64,000 bases of DNA from Crambe crambe (Eukaryota > Porifera > Demospongiae > Poecilosclerida > Crambeidae), in contig OZ004581.1 in NCBI GenBank assembly GCA_963924555.1, positions 4,774,001-4,838,000 on the forward strand, written 5' to 3'. Below, piece after piece: positions 3,469 through 59,600 of this stretch (positions are counted from its first letter, which is position 1; the number at the start of each line of letters is the position of its first letter). The notes under the pieces are model-generated. The model saw only the letters and a list, made by a program, of their open reading frames with translations. It had not been told where the DNA came from and searched no databases. The position numbers and the translations under genes are program-made.

Positions 3469-25515
<22,047 letters not shown>

Positions 25516-26072
25516 GCCTATACTAGCCACGTGTATAACTTGACCGGATATATCCTAGAGACGTTTTGTCTACGTTCCCAGTCAACCGCTGGGGGTCTTG
25601 GGGTCTGATTGCTTCAATGCTTTTTAAAATTTTATTCATTATTTGGAATTTCCGCTATAATTAATCTGCATCGCGCGATCTTATTGGTCGAATATTAATA
25701 GCAATGACGTAATCCCCAAATATAGGCACAATCTAACTCGTGACCGACATGGGATCTAATAAATTGTACACAGCTTTAGGAGAGCTCAGTTCAGCCAAAA
25801 AAGAAAGATTATAAAGCATCAGGAAAGTAACAAAAAAGTTTCTTCTCGCTGAAAAAGCGTTTCGAAAGTTGCCTTTTACAATGCGATTGTTGATTTCGTT
25901 GTCATCAAAGATTATTTCTTCTCACCACACGGATTGGATACGGAAGAGCTTGCATGATTGAAAACCTTTACATCCAGATTCATCAACTTTGAACACTAAC
26001 TTCATATAATAGATCGAAAGAGTAATCGTAGGGCGATTTGTGTGATATATTTTTTCTGGCTGTGGGTATAGT
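25516..26072. promoter_or_regulatory. Divergent promoter between ECD and the ATF4-like gene
   Basis: Only 557 bp separate the ECD start codon (25515, minus) from the first short uORF of the ATF4-like gene (26073, plus). Visible elements are an inverted CCAAT box (ATTGG, 25683-25687), a CRE/ATF-like site ATGACGTAAT at 25704-25713, and CACGTG at 25527-25532 close to the ECD start. No TATA box is clear. Three further upstream ATG frames lie on the plus strand: 25749 (21 codons), 25881-25961 (26 codons) and 25954-25992 (12 codons). Whether these are transcribed depends on the unknown start site. The CRE-like site would fit bZIP or ATF autoregulation, which is inference. Confidence 0.6.
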
Positions 26073-26084
26073 ATGGCTATTTAA
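26073..26084 (+). promoter_or_regulatory. uORF1 of the ATF4-like mRNA (Met-Ala-Ile-stop)
   Basis: ATGGCTATTTAA in a strong start context (A at -3, G at +4). It lies 54 nt upstream of the uORF2 start. Mammalian ATF4 also has a 3-codon uORF1 that permits efficient reinitiation. Confidence 0.65.
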
Positions 26085-26138
26085 AGAGGGAAGGGTGCTA
26101 TTGCACTGCTGTACCCAAATTCAAAGTTATATTTCACT

Positions 26139-26398
26139 ATGGGGTAAGCTATTTGTAGTAGAGACACTATTGTAATTGAGTTATGTAGGAAGTTATATTC
26201 ATTCACTGTTTTTTTCCGTGTAGGTTCTTTACAATTACCTTGTCCACAAGTATTGGACACAAAAAGCAGAAACCAATTTGTTTCGAGATTACTGATCGCC
26301 AGAAAGATATTGAAATTGCACCTGAAAGATCGTTCAATGGCTGTGAATCTAGAATCACTGTTACCACAGGTTTTCCAAGGGAACATGGTTCCTTCTGA
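26139..26398 (+). promoter_or_regulatory. uORF2 of the ATF4-like mRNA, 59 codons, overlapping the main start
   Basis: The ATG at 26139 has A at -3 and G at +4. After two codons it meets a GTAAGC donor (exon end 26143). An acceptor TTTTTTTCCGTGTAG (exon start 26224) restores an open frame that runs to TGA at 26396-26398, giving 59 codons. It overlaps the main coding start (26337) by 62 nt in another frame. Without splicing the frame stops at once (ATG GGG TAA), so the uORF depends on removal of the 80-nt intron 26144-26223. Mammalian ATF4 uORF2 is also 59 codons and overlaps the coding region. Confidence 0.65.
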
Positions 26399-28471
26399 TG
26401 ACCTGCTCTTTAATGAGCACTTATCCCTCTCCTCGATGTATCAGAACGACTCTGTCCTGGGGGATTTGACTGACTCTGCTTTGGAGTTCTCCTTTTCCAA
26501 GCCTGATAGTTTGCCACTGGACGTCAGTGACAGTGTCGAGTATTTTGGAAATGACTTTCCTGAGCAAGCATCACAAAGCTCCCCTTCTTCTGGTAATTAA
26601 TTTTATTTAGGGTTTATTGAAGAGTGCATGATTGTGTGACCATCTGTATTTTCCTGGTCTTTATTACATAGACACGCAAATAAACTTGCAATGCAATATC
26701 AGAGTCTCAATTCTGCACTTGAGAATTTTGATCAGTCGTAGGCCATTTCCTTGAGTTGTGTCAACACCACCCCACTCAGCTTAATGGTAGTTGGTTATTT
26801 GTCAATGGCTTATCCTTTGAAGAGGGACAGGTATTAGGTACACAGCATTGGACCTCTAAAGAGGCGACCTCTGTACAGGAATTCCTGTTCAGATGTCTGT
26901 CTCCATAGTATTGTGAGCAAAACATGATGTAATCACATTTATTTTAAATAGTAACAAAAATGTCTCTGAAGGAATTCTACAGGAATTCCTGTTCAGATGT
27001 CTGTCTCCATCCATAGTATTATTGTGAACAAAACACATGTAATTTTAAATAGTAACATTAAGCCCTCTGGCATGCCCGCATCCTTGTAGGTTTATTAGGT
27101 GGAGTGAAGCTGTGTCTGGTTATAGAGCTTCTGTTAAGAGTTTTGTCTGACTTGCCTTTGTTCAAAGTGGGATGTTGCTTTCTCGATAATGAGTCCAAGA
27201 ATGTCTTTACTATCTTGGAAGCTTTGATGTAATGCGTTTGTGGTTTTAGTACTAGAGACAGCACATTCCTTTTAGGGAGGTGGTACAGTCTAGTACTAGA
27301 GACAGTGCATTCCTTTTGGGAGGTGGTACAGGGTTTCTCCCAGAAGGTAGCATGCAAATTCAACCATTAGAAAATAATAAATAGCTGACCCTATTGCTTG
27401 TGTTTAAGCTATAAGGGGGTACTGGGCTTAAACTTTGAGCACTGGATACTTTAATGACTACTTTAAGCTTTTCCTATTCTTCCTGACTGTATAGATTTCT
27501 TTGGAGACACTTGGCTCACCACTTCTATGGTCCTTCCTCTCACTCCAGAAGAAACTCTGGATGACACATGCTACACCCAGGCCTTCAACTCTGAGACACC
27601 ATCACCCACTTCTACCTTTGTTGCCACACCCACTAATTACCCCCACCACATTCCCCTTTCAGATGTCCCACTCACTCCCGAGTCTTTGCCTTCTCCTCTT
27701 TCCTCTTCCAACAGTAGCGAAGACTTAAACGAGGTTCTGTCTTACTTCAACGACAACTCACCTTACAGTGATTTCGATTGCACAACTGGTGAGCCACCTG
27801 TGTCGATATCTCCCTTAGCAACCACACCTCTGACCTCATGCAGTGATGGTAAGTATAGTTTAACTAATTTTGTGTTGGGTATAATATAATATTTGATGAT
27901 CAAACATGTGATTTATTTCATATTCTTGTACAATTTAGGACCTTCTATTTATTCATCTTATGCTTTTATGGGATCACCGACTTCTTCCTCCCCTTCCACC
28001 CCTGTCACACTCACCACTGTCACACCCAACGACACCATCAGGGGTCTCCTAGCAAGAGAATCTGATTCGATGTTCAGCAGTCAGCAACCATTTCAGGGTG
28101 TCCAAGACACATCAGCGAACTCTCCTGCTGCAAAGTCCACTTCACAATGCAGTGTCAACCCTCGAAAGAGGAATGCAAGTGACACGGGCTTGTCTTCCAA
28201 GGCACCTGAAAGCAAATCTCGTGTGTTTCGTTCACGGAAGCATATAAATCCAACTGGGAAGAAGGAGCGAAAGAGGGAACAGAATAAATCTGCTGCTCTT
28301 CGCTACAGGCAGAAGAAGAAGGAAGAGAAATCTGAGATAGAGATCCTCGAGCAGAACTTGGAAGAGAAAAATGTGGGCCTAAAGGCCACTGTGAAGTCAC
28401 TTGAAGCTGAAATCAACTATCTCAAGAAGTTATGGTTTGAAATTGAAGATAAGCGCCAGAAAAGTATTTAG
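26337..28471 (+). CDS. ATF4: ATF4/ATF5-type bZIP transcription factor
   Basis: Three coding exons: 26337-26592, 27495-27848 and 27939-28471. Phases match (both introns after the first base of a Gly or Asp codon) and the total is 380 aa. The N-terminal 300 residues are acidic and Ser/Pro/Thr-rich, as expected for an activation domain. The bZIP occupies about residues 311-378. Its basic region KKERKREQNKSAALRYRQKK matches the ATF4/ATF5 consensus (EQNK.AA.RYRQKK), and a leucine zipper follows (LEQNLEEKNVGLKATVKSLE). ATF4 is the effector of the integrated stress response and is controlled by uORFs when eIF2alpha is phosphorylated; the leader here has the matching arrangement. A DTGLSS motif in exon 3 resembles a beta-TrCP degron with Thr in place of Ser. 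The main ATG has a weaker context (T at -3) than either uORF. A 5' non-coding exon upstream of 26143 is inferred. ATF4 versus ATF5 cannot be separated here. Confidence 0.88.
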
Positions 28472-34132: not shown

Positions 34133-37100
34133 TTAGCATGCTGCAGCTTCTGCACTGACATTTGCTTCTTTTCCATGAAATCCATACTCTTCTTCATCCT
34201 CTTCTTTAATAACATTTCGATTTCTTATCACCATCTGTGGGGTATTCTCTGGTTCCATGGACTCATCATCTTCACTTTGTTTTGTGTTGATGTTTTGCTT
34301 ATGGATGGGACGACTGCTCACCAATTCAAAAGTGTTAGAAATGGCAGACCCAAGTGTACTTTCATTGCACCTTACTTCACTGCCTCTGGAAATGTTACTT
34401 AGCTTGGAAGATTTCACATCACTAGATGAAGTGGACCAAATCAGGATTTTTTTCTGGCATTTATTGCAGAGTAGCTTATTCATCCACAATTTCCATTCAT
34501 TTCGAGCATCTTCAAGTCGCAAGCAATACATCAAGAACAGATACAATCCGTGGAAAGCTGTGAGGACGATAAAAATGATCTGTACGATTGTAGCTACTAC
34601 TAAATTCCTGAATCCTTCAGTGGCAGCAATTCCAGCTCCCCAGCCAATTCCAAACAGAATGCACAGAGACACAACTACTATAAATCTCTTTCTCATTCTC
34701 AGCCATGCAGACTTGTCTTCATCACCAACTTTAGCTCTGTCTGCCTTACACAGGAGAGAGAAGATGATGAGGAGGAACATTATCCAAATGAAAATGTAGA
34801 TCACACCAAATGGCCCAATGAGTCCGATGTAAAATGGAAGACCGTAAGGACGACACCTACATTCATAACAATCATGAAACCTCCAAAATCAATGACGAAT
34901 ACAAAAAGCGCTACATATAATAGCTGAACACATGCCATAGTGCTTATAACTGTGCTAAAGCTCACAATTCTTTGTTATAGTAGTTGATCCATTTAGGGCC
35001 AATGCACACTCCAGTGATCACAAGAGGTACACCTGAAAAACATTAGTTGAGAGTTAAACTCCATAACATAGGTGGTGGATCAGGTCAGGCCAGTCAGACC
35101 CAGGAAAGGTTGATTATTAGCTAATCAGTGACTGTCAATCACTTAATATTGAAAGTGTCCTATGATGCTACAATGTTTTCAATTTCAGGCCTGACCAATC
35201 GAACCATACCCAAATTACTTTTATTAATTCTTAATGCAAGGATGTAGATAAAGGGGGGCTTTGGGAGATAAAGGAGAGACCTTAAACATTTCAGCTAGCT
35301 AGACTCCAATGACTATAGCTTCCTTGCTCTATAGAAGTTATCTACACCCTTGGTTAATGGGCTCATTTCACTCACTCCAAGACAAGATAGCAGCCTTTAG
35401 GGCATATCTGTTTTTGAAGAAAGATGGAATTCCAATGACAATCACCAAGTAAACATAGAGATCCAAGGCTTCTGCAGCCATTAAGAAGAAAGTAACCAGC
35501 ATGAAATAATGCACTCCTGCTCCAGCGATTGAACATATGATAACATATTTGGTGACTCTTGAGCTGATCATGAATGTAGTGTATATCCCAAGCAAGCTAA
35601 AACAGAAGTTGATGAGGAGGGGTGTGTTTTTGGCATGACGCAACTTTTTTGAGGAAAGATAAGTAAGAACCGTGATGAAGATACATACAGTGGAGACTGA
35701 AACTCCAATGTATGAGAGAGAGGTCAAGGTGTAAACAACTGCAGGTGGGGGTGAAATGTCAAACTGGGGACTGACATCCTGTAGGAAAAAGGGCAGTGAT
35801 GGGACAATTCAAGGCTCAATAATTATAGCTAGTAAGTATTACATGTCGTAGTGCTGTATGTATGTATATATTCTCCTATTACAATTAGTGTACTTAAACT
35901 CCCCCTTCCCCTGAAGTGTTTGATGTGGAAACTTTAAAATGGGTGTAGAAGTATCTCTGACTTCAGCATATAAGTATTATAGTGTTATAGCATTTTATGC
36001 CAGGTTATAATAGGAACTCACCATTAAAATGGCAAAATTGGTGAGATGGTCACATTCACATGTCACCATTTCTTCAGTTTCCATAGCAACACTACAGCCT
36101 CTACTTGACCAGTCACCGAATCCCTCTAGAGATAAAAAAAACAACAACAATAACATGAAGTCTCTGCAGTCACACTACTTGCAATAAGCTATGAACACAC
36201 CATCAGCCAATGGATCCCAGAAATTGCAGGATGCATTTGTTGCATTCTCAACTTCGGGCCTCTTGGTAAAGTTCAGCATTATAGGATCCTGAAGTCCTTC
36301 TACAAACTTGTTGCCAATGGAGACAGATGTGATTATTCCACCGACTGTAAAGTTGCTTTCGTCATGTTGTAGAAATAAAGATTCTGCTAAGTATATCACA
36401 TTAATGATCCTTATATCTGACTGGTTCAAATCTATGTCCTGGAATATGTTATCTGGAATAGCAATAGACGATACTGAATTGTTATCTCTTTCATAACTCA
36501 ATGATTGTTCTGGAATCTTATCATTATAACTGAGTGAGTCATATTCCAAAGCAGCACTGAAAGTTAGTCCACTGAATTGATCCACTTGTATATTTCTCGC
36601 AGCAAGAGACAGTAAGTGCTTAGACACCATCACACTTGTCTGATTCTCAGCAATTGGTATATTCAAGCCCACTGCATTAACAACATTCAGTATCCTGCAA
36701 TAAAAATGAAGAGCATGGCTATTCTAGAGATAAATATGCATAGATTTTTTCTTCTTTGACTTTGTTACTAGGGTGACTCAAGTATTTCCAGCAAGCAAAT
36801 GCCTTGTCTCAGTAGATAATATTTGAGCAAGTATAACAGAATTATACCTTGGTTGTCCCACCTTGCACCTCATTAATTTTTTGCACCTCATTTAATATCT
36901 GGAACTTTCAGATTTTGGATATTTTTATGATTAATTAGCAATTGCACAACAACAACTACCAGTATCAGCTACACTGTTCTAGGTTGTTAGTGCTAACTAT
37001 GAAAAAATTATAAACAACGCAGCATAACCACAACACTAGCTAATACCATTTTTCTGCACTAATTATCCAGCAGCCCTGGGAAAAAAGTTTGGATGAAAAA

Positions 37101-56619: not shown

Positions 56620-59600
56620 CTACTACTACTACTACTACTACTAGTGTTAGCTAAAGGCTACTGTAGCTGAATATGAATATAAACAACACTGAGTTTATCA
56701 ATACTTGATTTATTGTAGATTTATTGGCTGTTGTCCCAGCACAATCAGTAGTAGCTGCTAAAAATGGAGGTTTTGTCAATCTGAAGATTTACGTGGCAGG
56801 GCAACCAGAAGTCAAAGCTGAAGAGATTCACTGGTACCGACCAAATGGTAGTGAGATATTAGCCAGAGAGGGGATCCTTCATGACCACTCCACAAGATTC
56901 TTTCTTTATTTTGTACGAGAAGAAGATGCTGGGAGATACACCATAAAAATAATGAGGAATGTAAACTTAACCAATATTTCCACAACTTTCAATATATTGG
57001 TAAACGGTGAGTGCATGCGGTAGTGTTATATAATGCAACAAAATGGATTGTCTTTATCTTCAGTTAGCTACCGTAAATTGGATGTTGATTAATTTTTGTG
57101 GTCATGTTCAACAATAAAAATTAATTGCATGAAAATTAATAGTGTAAAGCATGTAAGCTGTAACAATGTAAAGCATGTAAGCTGTAACAATGTAAAGCAT
57201 GTAAGCTGTAACAATGAAAATTGTAAACATGACTAATGAAAATTTCACAATTTGTGGTAGTTAGTGTGTTCATGGTTCATGATAGCTGATTTGCTAGATT
57301 GTTTGATTTGCACGAATTCATGGTGTAGTTATAGCTCTGATCATAATGAACAAGCTTATCTTCTAACCCCCCTCCCCAGCACCTCCCCCCAGTATGTTCA
57401 AGTTTTTTACTTGCTCTTCTCTTATAATAAATACAGAAGCAGCCTCAATCACTCACTGGCCTCCGAGTCTAATCATAACTCGTGAGAGTGAGGTGGTCAA
57501 CTTGACATGTGTAGCAAGGGGATCACCCGAAATGGAAGTGGCAATTTTAAGTGGCAACACTACACTTGTCTCTGAGAGACCAATGAGCGGCCAAAGTGCA
57601 ATTAGTACACTGGAGGTGGGCTATACTTTCTTCGGCATCAATAAAAGTGATGAAGGAAATTATAGCTGCACTTTACATGATGAATTGTTATTGAACAATG
57701 GTTCCTCCAAACAGAAACATTTCAGTATTATTGTGCAAGGTACATTTGCAATTTCATTGTTGGCTATCCAATCTCCAGATTTGATAATAGATGGTGATGA
57801 ATCACTTATAGCTGCAGTAGACCCTATCCAGCCCTCACTTATACCATCGGCCTCACTTCCAAATCATGACTACATGCTAATTTACATGCATGTTATAGTA
57901 CATGCATGTTACAGTACATGCATGTTTGGAATTAAGTATAGCTAGCTACAGGGTGAAGCATCTACACCACAGACACAGGGCAGCTGCTGCAACATGTATA
58001 AACCATAATTATGGAAACCATTTACCACCAGATCTTGACTCATTCTAGAGCATATGTAAATTCACAAATTTCATAATATCCAATTTGGGTCGGTCCCATT
58101 GAGTACAGTATAGTTACGTGACTTGCTATTACAAGCTCCACCCCTTTCCCATGCCTTAATAGGTGCTAATAGGGGAATGGGAGCTTAAGGGTAAGCCTGA
58201 CCCAATAACTACCGATCACATCATCTGGCAAGCCAGACGATGGAGAAATTAATCCAATTGGCTGGTGATGAATGACTATGCTGTCATTTACTCTATTATT
58301 GTTGCAGTACTACCACAGATTGTTATAGTAGTCAAGGATTTCATTGGACTCCAGTCAAGAGATGAAAGATCTTTTCCACTCTCAATTGAGTTCTCCATTA
58401 TAAATGCCTCACCACCTGTTAGGCTGTCGGGAATTCAATGGCAGTATTCCAACTACTCCACAGAGAATGCTACTACAGACTTGATACAAACATCATCCGG
58501 CTTGTTGGATGATGGAAAATTCACTCTCTCACCTGATCTTCAAACTCTAACTTTGCAAAGATTGATGGTTGTAGACAAAGGAGAGGCTATTATCACAGTC
58601 ACTAATCCAGCTGGAAGTGATACTGTTAATGTGGATATTGATATTGAAGGTGAGTCTCATTCATTTCCAAGTGTAATTATATAGCTAGTGCATGCACCCG
58701 TGGACACCGAACACTTAGAAATGCACAGCAAGTGTGAAATATCAGTTAATTGTATTATATACGTATGTTGCTGCTATATATTGCATTTTGCTAGCTATAG
58801 CTAGCGCTGTTTGTTTCAATTACAAATAAATAGCACTGTTGTATCTTTAGCATACAGATGAATAGCTTTTATCCAGCCATAATTTTTTAGATGTGCTTTA
58901 TCTCTTTAGATGTGCTTTATCAAGCACCCTGTTTGAGCTCACCGTATGTACAAGTTAGGCTACATGTATGCATTTTTGAATGTTTGTATGCAACCATTGT
59001 ATGTAGAGTATCAAAACATATTTAAATGGATTAGCTAGCTCTGTTTACCTGTGGCTCCTTCATTATTAGTGTCTAGGCGTCAACCTACAGATGTGTTCCT
59101 GTCCATAATGAGCATACAGTGGAACCTCCAAATAATGGACACCCAGTCTTTGTCCTTTGTTTGAGAGGTTTGTTCTCTTTCGGACTGTTCAACTGCAAAG
59201 AAACAATTTTTTGAGGTTAATGGTTAACAGGCCATGGTAGTATTGACTATGATAGATATGTAAGAAACTCAGTGGGCATTATATTATCCATCTGCAGGGT
59301 TTCATCTACTGGGGGTGCAGAGGGGAAGCCCCCCCCCCCAAACCCTCAATCTTCCCCCCCCCCCCCCAAACTAACCAAGGGTACTCCCTTTGGTGACCAC
59401 AGGTTGTTACATAGTCACCAAAGGAAGTAATTAAGGGGATACTTTAGCATTTTTAGCTTCATGCTTCGCACTTCACGGTTTGCGTGGGAGGGGGCACATT
59501 CCCCTCCCACACCCTCCCCTTTGCTGTGGCCTATGGCCACGTGATCGGTGAACTTCCCCCCCCCCCCAACGTGAAATTCCTAGATGAAACCCTGATCTGT

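Follow-up and report, generated by a model that had tools for sequence, protein, structure and literature searches.

Within the stretch of Crambe crambe DNA analysed in this study (64,000 nucleotides, hereafter the window), three coding exons on the forward strand were found to join into a clean product of 380 amino acids with a bZIP domain at its C-terminal end (Table 1). The portion of the third exon that carries this domain (28001-28468) gave Pfam matches to bZIP_1 (3e-11) and bZIP_2 (2.1e-7), and its sole PDB sequence match at E <= 0.001 was to ATF-4 (1ci6, E 2e-7). An ATF4-type basic region and leucine zipper were identified from these PDB and Pfam matches, and the assignment of the gene as an ATF4-type bZIP is well supported by its sequence. 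All 13 metazoan bZIP families have been described as older than the split between sponges and eumetazoans (PMC4736632). Searches of the 143-Mb genome with the bZIP protein piece and with the leader DNA as queries revealed no second ATF4 copy and no haplotig. Protein searches for relatives in viral and prokaryote collections, where no match was to be expected, likewise revealed none. Furthermore, the genome was found to encode an eIF2alpha exon, seven matches to the W2 domain and a GCN2-like exon with a match to PF12745 over the cut-off. PF10488 (GADD34/CReP) gave no match, a negative to which the control of that search lends no weight.

Table 1. Coordinates of features identified at the ATF4 locus, given as positions of the window.
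Feature	Position	Strand	Remarks
Possible extra uORF, 21 codons	25749..25814	+	G at -3, G at +4; only with an upstream transcription start
Possible extra uORF, 26 codons	25881..25961	+	A at -3, C at +4; only with an upstream transcription start
Possible extra uORF, 12 codons	25954..25992	+	T at -3, A at +4 (weak); only with an upstream transcription start
uORF1, 3 codons	26073..26084	+	ATG GCT ATT TAA (MAI*); A at -3, G at +4
uORF2, first 5 nt (ATGGG), leader exon 1	26139..26143	+	A at -3, G at +4
Leader intron, 80 nt	26144..26223	+	GTAAGC ... TTTTTTTCCGTGTAG; splits codon 2 of uORF2
ATGTAG start-stop inside the intron	26183..26188	+	Present only on intron retention
uORF2, remainder	26224..26398	+	Stop TGA at 26396-26398; overlaps the main CDS from 26337
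ATF4 CDS exon 1	26337..26592	+	Main ATG with T at -3, G at +4
Hairpin predicted within the overlap, 7 bp	26378..26394	+	Triloop is the in-frame AUG of codon 17 (26385-26387)
ATF4 CDS exon 2	27495..27848	+	Frame-consistent splice
ATF4 CDS exon 3	27939..28471	+	bZIP domain and stop

Head to head with ATF4, an ORF of 83 amino acids lies on the reverse strand (25264-25515); it has no Pfam match, and the two may share a promoter. A CCAAT-like motif and an ATF/CRE-like motif (TGACGTAA) were read by eye near 25680-25712. A second reverse-strand ORF, of 101 amino acids and started by an ATG (26081-26386), runs antisense to the leader and to the overlap between uORF2 and the coding sequence, and is probably due to chance. 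Other ORFs in the neighbourhood were identified as encoding an amidase (PF01425; 31761-33068, reverse strand), a secretin-type 7TM protein (PF00002, a weak match; 34133-34888, reverse strand) and Ig domains (57367-57945, forward strand).

Two further observations concern the genome at large. The pattern ATGGGTAAGN{20,50}CAG gave 669 forward and 1159 reverse matches, compared to 153 and 133, respectively, for a reversed control. Among the matches listed, many were found to belong to one repeat family with opposite copies situated about 100-150 nt apart, which is perhaps a dispersed inverted-repeat element. C1A proteases accounted for 121 matches in the genome, with the catalytic Cys present in all five of eight retrieved loci that were read on the coding strand, while a regular expression applied to eight further stretches (one being the GCN2-like locus) identified one C1A motif, also with the Cys. 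Seven cathepsin-L-like exons were read by place, of which five possess the Cys and two possess a Ser instead (CGSSYAF at C15:865537-865659 and CCSSYAF at C9:8366829-8366945). These two exons lie amid many C1A matches and are silicatein-like, the silicatein motif having Ser in place of the catalytic Cys, which makes a demosponge the probable host.

Upstream of the main ATG of ATF4, a pair of uORFs was identified. The first is within the short size of 2-3 amino acids and in a good context (MAI*, A at -3 and G at +4), while the second, on joining 26139-26143 to 26224-26398, measures 180 nt and consists of 59 residues and a stop. The distance from the stop of uORF1 to the ATG of uORF2 is 54 nt, and that from the latter to the main AUG is 118 nt when spliced; in the spliced form only, uORF2 overlaps the start of the main CDS by 62 nt and out of frame. 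After splicing, uORF1 and the main ATG are separated by no ATG other than that of uORF2, and the 225 nt of spliced leader from 26032 contain 2 ATGs, compared to approximately 5.5 predicted at 0.0243 per nt. When recomputed, the coordinates and lengths of the uORFs reported in the earlier note, together with the gap and the overlap between them and the main frame, were reproduced exactly; its start contexts for the two uORFs and for the main ATG (T at -3), and its reading of the unspliced ATG at 26139 as Met-Gly-stop, were likewise recovered. The presence of an ATF4-type paired-uORF leader on this ATF4 gene is considered well supported from sequence.

This layout depends on the leader intron, which is very likely to be real and, as read from its splice sites, would be removed in vivo. 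Its donor and acceptor scored 4.0 and 7.2 bits, respectively, and were the sole sites above 3 in the region 25700-26400, the weights used being human-type frequencies and not ones fitted to the sponge genome. On the forward strand, only 46 of 3517 GT and 4 of 4323 AG dinucleotides scored at least as highly, with those of the leader intron themselves counted. GT-AG pairs at a spacing of 40-150 nt with both sites this strong were limited, in the 64-kb window, to the leader intron on the forward strand and to one pair on the reverse strand, while 14 were found in 342,228 nt of other loci (both strands, with some overlap), real introns possibly being among them. For reference, 53 matches were drawn on to choose 24 pairs of adjacent exons in TCP1-family genes, and 23 of these pairs gave a frame-consistent intron; one pick (C15 122/116) showed a length misfit of 12 nt. 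Against these 23 homology-anchored genomic introns, a set biased towards strong sites since several pairs had multiple candidates and were chosen by the same weights, the leader intron had a donor at least as strong as 13 and an acceptor at least as strong as 20, and its length falls inside their range of 49-581 nt.

The chance expectation for the layout was modelled with 20000 dinucleotide shuffles, with the CDS kept, of the leader in its spliced form, cut at 26050. In 45% of shuffles some out-of-frame uORF overlapped the main start, and in 27% one with a purine at -3 did so. Exactly two ATGs, forming a short uORF (<=10 codons) followed by an overlapping uORF, were found in 1.1%, and in 0.3% when both were to have a purine at -3. 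Overlapping uORFs of exactly 59 codons occurred in 0.22% of shuffles, with the pair of 3 and 59 codons in 0/20000. These figures are biased in favour of the two-uORF layout, since the chosen cut lies a short way before uORF1. Taken from 25740, the real leader contains five uORFs and thus lacks the two-ATG arrangement, which was also found in 0/20000 shuffles, and in its unspliced state it has no overlapping uORF, compared to 39% of shuffles that have one. On this sequence evidence we take the layout to be meaningful.

The same pair of lengths is known from mammals, where ATF4 has been described with a uORF1 of 3 codons and a uORF2 of 59 that runs into the CDS in another frame (PMC6321046, PMC11832788), although a review counts them as 4 and 60 codons (PMC12839439). 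The sponge leader is therefore like the mammalian one in possessing a 3-codon uORF1 and a 59-codon overlapping uORF2. Differences were identified in the overlap, which is reported as 83 nt in mammals (PMC5666893) and as 125 nt in Drosophila crc/ATF4-RA, a transcript whose two uORFs are described as having opposite effects on a reporter (PMC4433282). Unlike in mammalian ATF4, no start-stop uORF is included among the ATGs of the spliced sponge leader. The intron that splits codon 2 of uORF2 in the sponge may be a further difference; literature listings gave nothing on the placement of a human leader intron relative to uORF2.

The mammal-like lengths emphasized in the earlier note do hold as an equality, but carry less evidential weight than was given to them. 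A uORF1 of 2-3 amino acids is typical, and the length of uORF2 amounts to a match of approximately 1 in 58, as the stop in its frame is fixed and 58 upstream codon slots would give an overlapping uORF. The exact length of 59 codons is probably coincidental when judged in this way. The match was rejected as proof of conservation given this number of slots and the differing overlap in Drosophila.

A published survey describes paired ATF4 uORFs as conserved across metazoa with the exception of nematodes, with arthropods, Aplysia and Hydra included, and gives the typical arrangement as a permissive uORF1 of 2 or 3 amino acids followed by a long uORF2 (PMC4176352). The sponge leader shares with these animals the short uORF1 and the long uORF2, some of their leaders having an extra uORF of weak context upstream. 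The terms sponge, Amphimedon and Porifera have 0 occurrences in the main text of that survey (PMC4176352), and none of the literature matches listed treats a sponge ATF4 leader, judging by titles and the start of abstracts. The suggestion in the earlier note that the switch is ancient or has been strongly maintained is partly supported, being in agreement with the survey as regards antiquity, but is not a new inference, since the layout has already been reported across metazoa. While the paired-uORF layout itself is already known from other animals, the intron inside the repressor uORF was found here.

The number of uORFs on the mRNA would depend on where transcription starts, and a count of two is valid only for a start between about 25957 and 26072. 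Scanning from 25600 to uORF1 revealed five ATGs that were absent from the earlier note (25617, 25704, 25749, 25881 and 25954). A TATAAA string was identified at 25810, from which a start could add the uORFs at 25881 and 25954 to the leader, and TATA-like strings were identified at 26046, 26078 (inside uORF1) and 26128, from which transcription could start at or beyond uORF1.

It is somewhat unlikely, yet to be taken seriously, that transcription begins far upstream, as at 25740-25850, and gives an mRNA with four or five uORFs, which would bring the gene nearer to multi-uORF repression than to a clean two-uORF switch. Many ribosomes would then be taken up by the added uORFs, of which two have a purine at -3. 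The ATGs at 25749, 25881 and 25954 and the TATAAA at 25810 are in favour of such a start, as are the arthropod ATF4 leaders described with an extra uORF of weak context before uORF1 (PMC4176352). However, ATGs are scarce in the spliced leader from 26032 and the two present are strong, and short AT-rich strings such as TATAAA are frequent by chance. This reading also overlaps partly with the paired-uORF explanation, as the last two uORFs may still act.

A start in the opposite direction, at or after uORF1, or the addition of a spliced leader at the acceptor at 26223, would leave only uORF2 or no uORF at all and would reduce the layout to a coincidence. The three TATA-like strings and the frequency of a lone overlapping uORF among shuffles (the 45% given above) are compatible with this. 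It is nonetheless considered unlikely, as TATA-like strings are frequent in AT-rich DNA, and the strong donor at 26144, pairing with an acceptor 80 nt away, argues for an ordinary cis-spliced leader.

Of the possible explanations, it is considered fairly probable, on the present analysis, that the paired-uORF leader works by delayed reinitiation of the ATF4 type, like its mammalian and fly counterparts. The repressor uORF2 would come into being only once the 80-nt intron is removed, and the switch would hence exist only in spliced mRNA. Ribosomes would translate the three codons of uORF1, a permissive uORF, and then resume scanning. With ample ternary complex they would reinitiate at uAUG2, 54 nt past the uORF1 stop, read 59 codons and miss the main ATG. 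When eIF2 is phosphorylated, many ribosomes would regain ternary complex only after passing uAUG2 and would initiate 118 nt further on, at the main ATG, so that ATF4 is predicted to be induced under stress. Reinitiation at uORFs tuned by eIF2 phosphorylation is a likeness to yeast GCN4. The leader of GCN4 has four short uORFs, none of which is known to overlap the CDS, and GCN4 belongs to a bZIP family other than that of ATF4.

Retention of the leader intron would alter this arrangement. Ahead of the main ATG the unspliced leader contains MAI*, MG* and M*, none of which reaches into it, and RNA that keeps 26144-26223 would consequently allow ATF4 to be made without eIF2 phosphorylation, making retention a second, splicing-based switch. 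The reading frames of the unspliced leader are coherent with this idea. However, 61% of shuffled unspliced leaders likewise have no overlapping out-of-frame uORF, and retention is expected to be low given the strength of the splice sites. Such a switch is regarded as decidedly unlikely.

Within the overlap between uORF2 and the CDS, the bases of the hairpin at 26378-26394 are predicted to pair with probabilities of 0.84-0.99 when the spliced leader is folded, but the hairpin does not form part of the minimum-energy fold computed for 26260-26398. Hairpins with an AUG loop that are at least as stable (-5.6) were found to follow 49 of the 2944 ATGs of the window on both strands, 11 of them being in frame (that of ATF4 itself counted), while 78 of the 2944 have an ATG at codon 17. 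The two properties together occur once, at ATF4. In human ATF4, AUG3, described as the 17th codon, is reported to lie in the loop of SL3 within the uORF2/CDS overlap, and its mutation to be without observable effect in human cells (PMC11058473). The codon-17 AUG of the sponge ATF4 may resemble this, as the loop of a predicted hairpin inside the overlap, in a comparison that was picked after the fact. No unusually strong folding was found for the overlap as a whole (z = +0.42, with 128 of 200 shuffles folding at least as well).

The most far-reaching version of events, in which the uORFs of 3 and 59 codons and the codon-17 AUG hairpin have all been kept since the ancestor of sponges and humans, with uORF2 assembled by splicing and retention serving as a second, eIF2-independent switch, is judged very improbable. 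In its spliced form the main frame contains no stop over the 75 codons from 26032 to the main ATG at 26337, which would leave room for an N-terminal extension from a non-AUG start and a presumed leader that is partly coding. Such an extension is likewise very improbable, as those 75 codons are translated without a Met and, among model sequences with a length of 118 nt, which is shorter than 75 codons, approximately 7.5% stay open in a given frame.

Delayed reinitiation on a spliced, paired-uORF leader thus remains the favoured explanation for the ATF4 gene of C. crambe. If true, sponges, among the first animal lineages to branch off, would be added to the animals with the paired-uORF ATF4 switch, and this translational arm of the integrated stress response would have arisen close to the time when animals originated. 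The intron that interrupts uORF2 would furthermore provide a natural test of the coupling of splicing and translational control at ATF4.
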